The position numbers and the translations under genes were made by a program. The notes under the pieces are model-generated. The model worked only from the letters and a program-made list of their open reading frames with translations, made no database searches and was not told the DNA's origin. This document shows positions 26,579 to 63,713 of a stretch of DNA of 64,000 bases, one piece after another (position 1 is the first letter of the stretch; each line of letters starts with the position of its first letter). This DNA comes from Lutimonas halocynthiae (lineage in GTDB: Bacteria > Bacteroidota > Bacteroidia > Flavobacteriales > Flavobacteriaceae): positions 310,001 through 374,000 of the forward strand of contig NZ_JAUFQO010000016.1 in NCBI RefSeq assembly GCF_030409835.1, read 5' to 3'.

Positions 26579-27061
26579 AAACGCTTTCTTAAGACTTAAA
26601 AATAATCATTTTTATCATATCCTCAACGTTCTGACGATAACGTAAGAAATCCTGTTAAAACTCAATCTAAATCATAGCAATATGTTAATGTATTTGGTTA
26701 TTATGATCGTAAGTAAAAAACTTAATTGATTATGGATTAAAAGGTTAGACAGCAGTTTTAAAAGTTGAACAGAATTATTACACTTTTCAAGTTCGGAAAA
26801 AAAACGCTTGCTAAATGAGTTAAAAAAACATAGAATTATTAACAAAAACAAGAGGAAATTGAACCTGATTCCACTCCTTTTAATCCATAATTTTACTTGT
26901 ATTCTATGCTCAAAGACCTTAGAATTTAAGGGGTTAGAATTTATTGAAACACATAAGTTGTTGATTAAGAGTCTGTTTAATGAATTGGTCTTTTTTGTTC
27001 ATAATTCTTAAACATTTTTAATGTGTATTTAGTACATAATAGAAAAAAATTCGTAATTTCG
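26579..27061. other. AT-rich intergenic region upstream of the XRE regulator
   Basis: About 480 nt without a gene that I trust. A 67-codon frame from a TTG at 26808 exists, but it has no promoter and an unlikely composition. CTTAAGACTTAAAAATAATC near 26588 contains short direct TTAA repeats. The right end holds TAATTTCG (27054-27061), a -7-like element for the RNA unit that follows. Confidence 0.4.
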
Positions 27062-27137
27062 AGTTGCGTTTCAAAATACTCGGGGGAAAAGTTTTGAAAC
27101 TAACCTAACCTGATAGATTTTTCTATCAGGTTTTTTT
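27062..27137 (+). ncRNA. putative small RNA A: G5-loop hairpin plus terminator
   Basis: TAATTTCG at 27054-27061 resembles a -7 element with TTCG in place of TTTG. Seven nt later, GTTTCAAAA (27068-27076) pairs perfectly with TTTTGAAAC (27092-27100), enclosing a 15 nt loop that contains CTCGGGGGAAAA. A strong intrinsic terminator follows at 27108-27137 (ACCTGATAGA / TCTATCAGGT, then seven T). No coding frame fits. The same architecture with different stem sequences but a G4 loop recurs at 51685 and 59773, which suggests a small-RNA family. The loop is complementary to C5 tracts at 62343-62354 and 63557-63570. It may correspond to a known flavobacterial RNA motif such as Rfam Flavo-1; I cannot check. 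Confidence 0.5.
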
Positions 27138-27205
27138 GTGTACATAATCCAAATTTTACTTGAACAACTAACGCTGAAAGGAGAATTTCGAATTCCGACC
27201 GGGTG

Positions 27206-27226
27206 GGAGGTGAAGGGTTCACCTCC
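27206..27226. repeat. GC-rich palindrome related to the one at 23133
   Basis: GGAGGTGAA (27206-27214) and TTCACCTCC (27218-27226) form a perfect 9-bp inverted repeat around GGG, inside a GC-rich patch (27196-27236) between two terminators. It shares the core GGAGGTGA...TCACYTCCGA with the palindrome at the panE end. Confidence 0.5.
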
Positions 27227-27237
27227 GAAGGGTTCGC

Positions 27238-27276
27238 AAAAAAAAAGGTTGCACATCCATTCTGATGTACAACCTT
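27238..27276 (-). terminator. intrinsic terminator of the glucan phosphorylase gene
   Basis: On the minus strand, AAGGTTGTACATC pairs with GATGTGCAACCTT (27245-27276, one mismatch) and is followed by a run of nine T (27238-27246). It lies 26 nt after the phosphorylase stop. Confidence 0.85.
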
Positions 27277-60393: not shown

Positions 60394-62340
60394 ATGAACA
60401 TTCTATCAAACTACCGTTTTTTAATCCTTTTTATTTCATTGATAACCTTGTCCGCATGTAGTAGTGATTCGGGTGACATTGAGGTTGATCCACCAATTAC
60501 CCCAGAAATACCTGAATTTGAAGGACGCATAACCGTTTATAACCTTGCGCCAGCTTCAGAATCAGAAATTTCGGGAACTGCAACTTTTACTGAAAACGAA
60601 GACAATTCAATTACTATTGACTTAGATCTTGCAAATACGCCTTCGGGTGAACAACTTCCAGCTCACATTCATGTTAATTCAGCAGCAGAGGATGGTGAAA
60701 TAGTATTAACCTTAGGGCCTGTAGATGGTTCTACTGGAATGAGTAGTATTACGATCAACGCTTTCGATGATGGAACTGCAGTAACTTACGACACACTTAT
60801 TACTTACGACGGTGCTATTAATGTCCATCGCGATGAAGGAGAGTTGTTCTGGACCGTGATAGCTCAAGGTGATATTGGTGAAAATGTACTTACCGGTGTA
60901 TCGAAATCATATGATCTGAATGAAAAAATGGCACCTGGTATCCAAGGTACAGTTACTTTTTATGAACGTCTAAATGGAGAGTCTTTATCTGTTATACAAT
61001 TAGTTAATACACCTGAAGACGGAGTTCACCCAGCGCACATTCATAATGGCAATGCCTTAGAAGGAGGAAATATAGCAGTTTCTCTGAATCCAGTGGATGG
61101 AACATCAGGAACAAGTAAAACAAACATAGCGCAATTAGATGATGGCTCGTCTATATCTTATGATGATTTAATAGAATTTAGTGGACATGTAAATGTTCAC
61201 CTAAGTGCCGAAGAACTAGCAACAATAGTGGCGCAAGGAGACATAGGTGGAAATGAACTGTCCGGAACGCAGATGATGTATATGTTAGGAGAAAAAGATG
61301 CTCCAGGAATTTCTGGTATGGTACATTTTTACAAGAGAATGAATGGCGAAACCCTTGCCATGCTTGAATTAATGAATACTCCTGAAAATGGGGTACATCC
61401 TGCTCACATTCATAATAACTCCGCTGCAGAAGGCGGAGGAATCGCTGTAAGTTTTACACCGGTTGATGGAACAACTGGAATGAGCTACACAAATATTGCT
61501 GCGCTTAATGACGGTACTGCAATCAATTACGAAGGATTAATGGACTTTGATGGATATATTAATGTGCATTTAAGTGCAGAAAACCTGGCTGTTATAGTGG
61601 CCCAGGGAGATATTGGTCAAAATGAATTAACAGGTATGTCAATAATATATGACTTAGGCGAAAAAGATGCTCCCGGTATTTCAGGAATAGTGACTTTTTA
61701 TGAAAGAAAAAGTGGTGAAGCATTAGCTATGCTTAATGTAATGAATACGCCGGCAGGTGGTGTTCATCCAGCTCACATTCATAATAATTCTGCCGCCGTA
61801 GGAGGAGGGATCGCATTTTCTTTTAATCCAGTAAATGGAGATACAGGAATGAGTTTGACGCATGTAGCACAACTTGATGATGGAACTTCTTTTACATATG
61901 ATAATATTGAGTCTTTTGATGGATATATTAATGTGCACCTAAGTCCTGATAATCTTGCAACTATAGTAGCTCAAGGCAATATAGGATCAAACCTGAATGA
62001 TGATGGAGGAGAAGGTGAAACGGTTACCTATTCAGTTGGTAATACCGGTTCAAGTGCCTATCTCTTTACGGGTGCTGATTTAAACAATGAGTCAAATCCT
62101 GACTTCACATTCAAAAGAGGTCAGACTTATGTATTTGTTGTAAATGCTCCTGGTCATCCATTTTTAATAAAAACAACGGCATCTTTAGGAACTGGTGACA
62201 CATATGATGATGGTGTTGCTAACAATGGAGCAGCCACTGGAACAATAACCTTTACAGTACCTATGGATGCGCCAGATACACTTTTCTATATATGTGAATT
62301 TCATTCGGCAATGGTCGGTACTATTAATATAATCGATTAA
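60394..62340 (+). CDS. lipoprotein with four CHRD domains and a C-terminal cupredoxin domain
   Basis: This 648-residue protein has a lipoprotein signal (LITLSAC, Cys22). Four CHRD (chordin-like) repeats follow, about 123 residues apart (PAHIH at 89-93, 213-217, 336-340, 459-463; NVH partners near 143-145, 267-269, 390-392 and 513-515). A cupredoxin-like domain closes it (544-648) with possible copper ligands His588 (GHPF), Cys634, His637 and Met640 (YICEFHSAM). Each CHRD repeat keeps two His groups, so they may bind metal too. It is probably surface-exposed. Repeats 2-4 are most alike, including at DNA level, indicating recent duplication. The CHRD plus cupredoxin pairing is notable. The downstream region has two C5 tracts. 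Confidence 0.85.
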   Translation: MNILSNYRFLILFISLITLSACSSDSGDIEVDPPITPEIPEFEGRITVYNLAPASESEISGTATFTENEDNSITIDLDLANTPSGEQLPAHIHVNSAAEDGEIVLTLGPVDGSTGMSSITINAFDDGTAVTYDTLITYDGAINVHRDEGELFWTVIAQGDIGENVLTGVSKSYDLNEKMAPGIQGTVTFYERLNGESLSVIQLVNTPEDGVHPAHIHNGNALEGGNIAVSLNPVDGTSGTSKTNIAQLDDGSSISYDDLIEFSGHVNVHLSAEELATIVAQGDIGGNELSGTQMMYMLGEKDAPGISGMVHFYKRMNGETLAMLELMNTPENGVHPAHIHNNSAAEGGGIAVSFTPVDGTTGMSYTNIAALNDGTAINYEGLMDFDGYINVHLSAENLAVIVAQGDIGQNELTGMSIIYDLGEKDAPGISGIVTFYERKSGEALAMLNVMNTPAGGVHPAHIHNNSAAVGGGIAFSFNPVNGDTGMSLTHVAQLDDGTSFTYDNIESFDGYINVHLSPDNLATIVAQGNIGSNLNDDGGEGETVTYSVGNTGSSAYLFTGADLNNESNPDFTFKRGQTYVFVVNAPGHPFLIKTTASLGTGDTYDDGVANNGAATGTITFTVPMDAPDTLFYICEFHSAMVGTINIID

Positions 62341-62342
62341 CA

Positions 62343-62380
62343 TTCCCCCGAGTATGATTGATTAATCCCCCTGATAATTT
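62343..62380 (+). other. 3' region of the CHRD gene with two C5 tracts
   Basis: TTCCCCCGAGTA (62343-62354) is the exact reverse complement of TACTCGGGGGAA in the loop of putative RNA A (27077-27088). A second tract, ATCCCCCTGAT (62365-62375), follows. The segment lies between the CHRD stop codon and its terminator, so it would be in the mRNA tail. Confidence 0.4.
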
Positions 62381-62407
62381 AAAAAACCCGGTTTATCCGG
62401 GTTTTTT
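62381..62407 (+). terminator. intrinsic terminator of the CHRD lipoprotein gene
   Basis: AAAAAACCCGG (62381-62391) pairs with CCGGGTTTTTT (62397-62407) around a 5 nt loop, with T residues in the stem and after it. Confidence 0.88.
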
Positions 62408-62439: not shown

Positions 62440-63453
62440 ATGACTAATCCAGTAATACAAATTACCCCGCTTGGCTTTCCGTGGGAAACGAGTGATCCCT
62501 TCTTGTTTTGCGTACACCATGAAGATTTTTATCCAAAAGGGAACAAGAAGCTAGGGCCAGATGTCTCTTTAGAAGGACGCAACTTAGGCAATGACTTTAA
62601 CATTAAAGATGGGTTTAGGATGTACCACGGCGAAACAGTACCTGGATTTCCAGCACATCCTCATCGTGGATTTGAGACCGTTACAATCGCGAAAAAAGGT
62701 TTGGTAGATCATTCTGATTCGATAGGAGCGGCCGGAAGATTTGGAAATGGTGATGTACAGTGGATGACAGCTGGGCGAGGAGTGCAACATGCCGAGATGT
62801 TCCCGCTATTAAATCAAAAGGAAGAGAACCCCTTTGAATTATTTCAGATTTGGTTGAATCTTCCAAAAGTTAAAAAAATGGCTGATCCTCATTTTGCTAT
62901 GCTGTGGAAAGAAGACATTCCAGTTTATGTTTATAAAGATAAGAATGGGTTTGGCACCAAAATAGATCTCATTGCAGGTCAAATGGAGGGGGTTACGGCT
63001 CCCAGTCCAGCCCCTGATTCCTGGGCGGCTGACCCAAAGAACGAAGTCGCAATTTGGACTATTAAGATGGAGGCGAATGCAACTTTTCAATTGCCAAAGG
63101 CTTCTGAAGGCATCAATAGACGCTTATATTTTTATAAAGGCGGCGCTATGAAAGTTGCAGATAAAGACATCCCAACATATCATGCAGCAAGATTGCAAGC
63201 TGAAGGTGAAGTAATGTTAGAGAATGGGGAGGAAGATTCTTTTTTACTTCTTTTACAAGGCAGGCCCATTGCAGAAACTGTAGTTCAACACGGACCATTT
63301 GTTATGAATACGGCTCAAGAAATACAAAATACGATGAATGTTTTTCAGGCAACGCAGTTTGGTGGATGGCCTTGGCCCACTTATGATCATGTGCACCCTC
63401 ATCACGAAGGACGTTTTGCAAAATTTGCCGATGGAACTTTAGTTAAAAAATAA
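62440..63453 (+). CDS. pirin family protein
   Basis: This 337-residue cytoplasmic protein has two cupin domains. The first carries the metal ligands of pirins: HPHRGFE (His73, His75) and VQHAE (His117, Glu119). GDVQWMTAGRGVQHAEMF is the family signature. The second domain ends GRPIAETVVQHGPFVMN. Pirins may act as quercetinase-like oxygenases or as redox-sensing regulators; the true role here is unknown. At 337 residues it is longer than the 230-290 typical of bacterial pirins because of extra loops. TATCTTTA near 62415 resembles a -7 element. Confidence 0.9.
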   Translation: MTNPVIQITPLGFPWETSDPFLFCVHHEDFYPKGNKKLGPDVSLEGRNLGNDFNIKDGFRMYHGETVPGFPAHPHRGFETVTIAKKGLVDHSDSIGAAGRFGNGDVQWMTAGRGVQHAEMFPLLNQKEENPFELFQIWLNLPKVKKMADPHFAMLWKEDIPVYVYKDKNGFGTKIDLIAGQMEGVTAPSPAPDSWAADPKNEVAIWTIKMEANATFQLPKASEGINRRLYFYKGGAMKVADKDIPTYHAARLQAEGEVMLENGEEDSFLLLLQGRPIAETVVQHGPFVMNTAQEIQNTMNVFQATQFGGWPWPTYDHVHPHHEGRFAKFADGTLVKK

Positions 63454-63512: not shown

Positions 63513-63598
63513 TCTTTTAAGCGCACTAATGGATACTTAAATCAATCAAAATAAAGAAACTTTTCCCCCGAAACCCCTGTTAAAGCAGGGGTTTTTTT
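63513..63598 (+). ncRNA. putative small RNA D: hairpin, C5 tract and terminator
   Basis: GACTTTTG (63505-63512) is one base off a -7 element. TTTAAG (63516-63521) pairs with CTTAAA (63536-63541). Then comes AAACTTTTCCCCCG (63557-63570), fully complementary over 14 nt to the loop and 3' stem of putative RNA A (27081-27094). A terminator follows at once: AAACCCCTG (63571-63579) pairs with CAGGGGTTT (63586-63594), then T run. Without a frame, it could be a small RNA or simply the tail of the pirin mRNA. Confidence 0.4.
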
Positions 63599-63713
63599 AT
63601 TTTTCCTTATAGATCATTATATGTAACATTTATTACTTTTTATATGATTTTTATCACAACTTTTATCTGAATATATTTTTAATTTTACCTTGTCGTGATG
63701 TAAAATTTGAATT

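Follow-up and report, generated by a model that had tools for sequence, protein, structure and literature searches.

A conserved, predicted hairpin-loop small RNA of Lutimonas and its putative sponge or target partners at the CHRD/pirin locus

The window analysed here is a 64-kb stretch of the Lutimonas halocynthiae genome (G000 in our numbering of genomes), and it holds two predicted short RNAs that we call A and D. RNA A is flanked by a helix-turn-helix gene and a glycogen-phosphorylase-like gene, an arrangement kept in most relatives. RNA D belongs to a locus that reads, in order, CHRD-domain gene, 3′-UTR with a terminator-like hairpin, pirin-family gene, D and a gene for a 137-aa protein. 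The features are collected in Table 1.

Table 1. Predicted RNAs, their signals and the protein genes next to them (window coordinates)
Feature	Position	Strand	Basis
Operator-like dyad TGTGTA-N5-TACATA upstream of RNA A	27022..27038	+	nine-genome alignment
RNA A −7 box TAATTTCG, flavobacterial TAnnTTTG type	27054..27061	+	nine-genome alignment; consensus PMC9723704
RNA A, predicted ~72-nt small RNA	27066..27137	+	start predicted from −7 box; fold z −4.4; conserved in nine genomes; covariance model R1
RNA A hairpin, stem GUUUCAAAA/UUUUGAAAC	27068..27100	+	invariant in nine genomes
RNA A loop, 15 nt, UACUCGGGGGAAAAG, G-rich, proposed seed	27077..27091	+	near-invariant in nine genomes
RNA A intrinsic terminator	27107..27137	+	covarying stem
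CHRD-domain gene	60394..62340	+	Pfam CHRD; orthologues in G011, G013, G014, G017, G020
Second A-complementary site TTCCCCCGAGTAT, 13 nt	62343..62355	+	2 nt past CHRD stop codon; −24.4 kcal/mol
Second C-run TCCCCC, apparent tandem copy of site	62366..62371	+	matches single site of G011/G013/G017
Terminator-like hairpin closing CHRD 3′-UTR, AAAACCCGG..CCGGGTTTTTT	62383..62407	+	read from sequence; missed by consensus terminator scan
Pirin-family gene, upstream of D	62440..63453	+	Pfam Pirin, Pirin_C
D promoter-like −7 box TACTTAAA	63534..63541	+	alignment; G014 has TACTTGAA, same 26-nt spacing from seed
RNA D, predicted ~53-nt terminator-proximal RNA or 3′-UTR end	63546..63598	+	start predicted; syntenic orthologue in G014
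D seed AAACTTTTCCCCCGA, 15 nt complementary to A 27080-27094	63557..63571	+	complementarity, duplex energy; AACTTTTCCCC kept in G014
D intrinsic terminator	63570..63595	+	terminator scan

RNA A was present in 9 of the 22 Lutimonas genomes. Its 9-bp hairpin stem did not vary among these nine, and changes in the loop amounted to a single A/G substitution and the deletion of one base. The flanks and the terminator drifted; in the terminator stem both sides were changed in three pairs. Eight of the nine genomes had a TAnnTTTG or TAnnTTCG box just 5′ of the hairpin, and the ninth (G008) had TAAATTAG at this place. Because this box matches the −7 consensus of sigma-A promoters determined in F. psychrophilum (PMC9723704), we placed the predicted transcription start of A at position 27066. 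The dyad in front of the promoter, centred about 36 nt upstream of that start and readable as TGTG-N8-ACA in all nine genomes, is likely a regulator site, and the candidate regulator is the product of the divergent helix-turn-helix gene. Loose matches to the dyad elsewhere in the window numbered 32 versus 16 in shuffled sequence, most of them half-palindromes, and none was found upstream of CHRD. An Rfam search of the window returned a single tRNA, with no match near the gathering score for the stretches of A and D. All in all, the promoter signature and the terminator, kept throughout the nine genomes, would fit a free-standing transcript, and the invariant first stem and covarying terminator are those of a structure-conserved non-coding RNA, so that by sequence evidence A is a conserved small-RNA gene.

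An open frame running from TTG/ATG to TAA (MRFKILGGKVLKLT, 27064-27108) spans the A hairpin in several species and is broken in others. We rejected a mini-gene at this position, since third codon positions were conserved as well and the start codon varied; the frame had no start in G015, was shifted in G001 and had lost its stop in G011. Interspersed repeats of the GAGGTGA/TCACCTC type were also seen at 27190-27240, around 23100 and at two further loci (L017 and L068), and they are found repeatedly between genes throughout the genus.

The covariance model returned weaker A candidates in G002, G009 and G010, each with a G-run loop, a TAnATTCG box and a related terminator. With these three provisional, diverged homologues added, stem 1 showed five compensatory pairs; the three lie in other gene neighbourhoods, and their alignment was fitted to the model itself. 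Outside the genus, inspection of loop matches and covariance-model matches yielded no convincing homologue: exact copies of the loop lacked the A hairpin and resembled coding sequence, and the weak model matches that we inspected kept the terminator alone. RNA A was also retained in G001, G008, G012 and G015, where no CHRD gene was found (some of these are incomplete MAGs), and the CHRD locus therefore cannot be its sole role.

The sequence-only reading had pointed to an exact 14-nt reverse complement between the two RNAs, AAACTTTTCCCCCG at 63557-63570 against 27081-27094. The match holds and extends one base further, to 15 nt (63557-63571 against 27080-27094), flanked by a G.U pair; the 15-nt plus G.U pattern did not occur in 100 dinucleotide shuffles of the window. 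Both sites lie outside open reading frames of at least 100 aa and have intrinsic terminators close downstream. Both strands of the window were scanned in a sliding duplex-energy calculation with the A loop (AUACUCGGGGGAAAAGUUUU). The best trans partner was D (−26.7 kcal/mol), followed by the site at 62343-62355 (−24.4 kcal/mol); the third partner, at −18.3 kcal/mol, was far behind and equal to the 0.1% quantile over all window positions. When the loop was shuffled 100 times, one shuffle found a partner as strong as D, and a second partner reaching −24.4 kcal/mol appeared in no case. Neither of the two best partners found in the 64 kb is coding; each is on the sense strand and 5′ of a terminator, and 1.2 kb separates them. 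The shuffles and energies thus indicate that the pairing of A and D is unlikely to be due to chance, with a second site present in the same 1.2-kb locus. This second site had been missed by the sequence-only reading.

RNA D was known from the window genome and G014 only, and was absent 3′ of the pirin orthologues of other relatives. There is no pirin gene at the G014 locus, where the D orthologue sits between CHRD and the 137-aa gene. The spacers that contain D were 58% identical between the two genomes, and the A-complementary AACTTTTCCCC was the longest identical run in them (11 nt, tied with one AT-rich run). The complementary run is accordingly conserved in a sister species, 11 of the 15 nt and the G.U pair being kept while the flanks have otherwise diverged. 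Since the A loop hardly varies, it never covaries with a partner. The 66-nt stretch that encloses D (63540-63605) had a fold z of −3.7, and a promoter-like TACTT[A/G]AA box is spaced 26 nt from the seed in both genomes. On the strength of this conserved box D could be an independently transcribed RNA; it could equally be the 3′-UTR of the upstream gene.

A D-like sequence in G021 (CTTTTCCCC..GGGGTTTT) is outside the CHRD/pirin locus and was set aside, as was CTTTTCCCCGGG in G008 (L148), which has no shared hairpin and sits at the border of a coding gene. Non-syntenic D-like sequences were also seen immediately 5′ of strong hairpins in G020 (L136, C57:1777, CTTTTCCCCCG) and G017 (L255, C1:767991, AAACTTTTCCCC), the latter without a T-run.

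In G011, G013 and G017, TCCCCCGA follows the CHRD stop codon immediately and is itself followed by a terminator, with no D at the locus. Compared with these single sites, the CHRD 3′-UTR of the window genome seems to hold a duplicate, in which the first copy would have grown to 13-nt complementarity. In G020 CHRD is present, A was not detected and the CHRD 3′-UTR contains no C-run. Thus, a site is kept in all five genomes that hold both A and CHRD but is missing from the single CHRD genome in which A was not detected; few genomes enter this comparison, and G011, G013 and G017 among the five are close relatives. A remnant of the pirin C-terminus was found in G017 between CHRD and the 137-aa gene, upstream of the latter (L153), which suggests that the gene order of the window is ancestral and that pirin was lost.

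Pairing energies were also calculated as net values, keeping the A stem closed and charging the cost of opening both sites. Predicted net pairing with A was about −15.4 kcal/mol for D, about −15.6 kcal/mol for the CHRD 3′-UTR and −12.4 kcal/mol for the D of G014. The CHRD 3′-UTRs of G011, G013 and G017 reached about −9 kcal/mol through an 8-nt pairing core that is partly occluded. Among 357 3′-UTR starts the CHRD 3′-UTR of the window ranked first and those of G011, G013 and G017 7th to 9th; this background is conservative, because the starts were taken from fetched genus loci in which C-run sites are over-represented.

The CTTTTCCCC motif was not enriched genome-wide over a reversed control, and most of its sites in G000, G013 and G017 were antisense to coding genes; a broad regulon of C-rich seeds was for these reasons rejected. 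Individual sites were seen in the window genome. A lipoprotein gene at L103 (G000 C8:277648, minus strand) has ATGAAACTTTTCCCCCTG at its start, where 13 nt can pair with the A loop (−22.7 kcal/mol); A may target translation initiation here. CTTTTCCCC also follows two stop codons closely, at 1 nt for a berberine-bridge-type oxidase gene (L099, C1:380414) and at 5 nt for a globin-like gene (L101, C4:71811; globin by eye, not by profile). Both are placed as is the CHRD site, and they are possible further sites of A.

Taken together, we consider it probable (roughly 0.6) that A is a trans-acting small RNA seeded by its loop, with D and the CHRD 3′-UTR as its sponge or its targets in a 3′-UTR-based circuit. 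In such a circuit the exposed G-rich hairpin loop, near-invariant and with two strong partners 35-36 kb away, would be the pairing seed, and the CHRD/pirin locus would supply complementary C-rich seeds just 5′ of terminators, one behind the CHRD stop codon and the other within D. The loop would pair with these single-stranded 3′-end sites while the A stem is retained. Transcripts ending in C-rich seeds would titrate A, and A may in turn stabilise or destabilise them; expression of the CHRD/pirin locus would thereby feed back onto the other targets of A. Of the roles proposed earlier for the pair, that of D as decoy or target, implying a real RNA-RNA contact with A, gains support at the level of sequence from the run that survives in the sister-species D orthologue, from the second A site and from the 3′-UTR site in three more species. 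The other proposal, that A and D act as sense and antisense regulators, is not supported: they lie at unrelated loci 36 kb apart and have only the seed in common. As to the direction of regulation, we prefer a reading in which D and the CHRD 3′-UTR are sponges or targets to one in which D is the regulator, because A persists in genomes where CHRD was not detected and D keeps little beyond a seed and a terminator. Sponge and plain target are not distinguishable by sequence, and the sites may be either.

If A were a conventional regulator, the CHRD and pirin mRNAs would be plain targets in which 3′-UTR pairing alters decay or 3′-end processing, and A would not be sponged. The sites do lie downstream of protein genes with no intervening terminator, A is conserved more widely than its sites, and the binding of S. 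aureus RsaI to the icaR 3′-UTR offers a precedent (PMC9266662). We regard this as unlikely, though worth weighing, for D keeps little besides seed and terminator, and both species that have it show a promoter-like box at equal spacing, features that suit a sponge or a free small RNA better. It is improbable that D is instead the active regulator, a small RNA with a C-rich single-stranded seed for G-rich sites in mRNAs, and A its antagonist or one of its targets: D is short, exposes a CUUUUCCCCC seed before a terminator and has its promoter-like box at equal spacing in G014, but it occurs in two genomes only, versus nine to twelve for A, and the stronger structural conservation belongs to A. 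A chance match of pre-terminator C-rich runs to a conserved G-rich loop that binds a protein or something else would fit the lack of genome-wide enrichment of CTTTTCCCC, the one shuffled loop in 100 that equalled D and the retention of the loop where no CHRD locus was detected, but is hard to credit against two strong sites in one locus, the second not reproduced by shuffles, and seeds retained in orthologues.

Within the favoured reading of A as a loop-seeded small RNA, a more specific proposal can be made only tentatively: a three-part RNA circuit in Bacteroidota composed of A, the CHRD 3′-UTR as target and D as a dedicated neighbouring terminator-proximal sponge, which would have arisen as C-rich seeds within a single locus were duplicated and strengthened. 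Few base-pairing small RNAs have been characterised in flavobacteria, and a limited literature search found no description of an RNA sponge in Bacteroidota. RNA A and its partners offer a specific, testable set with conserved seeds that bears on whether 3′-end sponge circuits exist in this phylum.

Several known systems resemble parts of this arrangement. Rfp18 of F. psychrophilum is a conserved structured small RNA of Flavobacteriaceae with predicted mRNA pairing, including one site between two genes of an operon (PMC9723704); unlike A, its predicted targets are proteases and no sponge has been described, a comparison made by description and not by sequence. ChiX is sequestered by a segment of the chbBC operon mRNA (PMC8383071), a trap located in an intercistronic spacer, whereas the Lutimonas sites are at terminators. 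Staphylococcus aureus RsaI binds the icaR mRNA 3′-UTR and the small RNA RsaG (PMC9266662), and the predicted partners of A are likewise an mRNA 3′-UTR and another short RNA, although the phylum is different and Rfam relates neither A nor D to a known family. In Enterobacteria, the 3′-UTR-derived SroC pairs with GcvB, and the mRNA of its own locus is also a GcvB partner (PMC8383071). Similarly, D sits a short way 3′ of the CHRD gene, which bears its own A site, and the sequence of D shows position at an mRNA 3′ end and complementarity to a small-RNA seed, as would suit a putative SroC-type sponge. The likeness is one of arrangement, with the difference that pairing would take place through the hairpin loop of A. 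By analogy, the A/D arrangement would work like these known 3′-UTR sponge and target systems, with D exerting a putative sponge effect on A.
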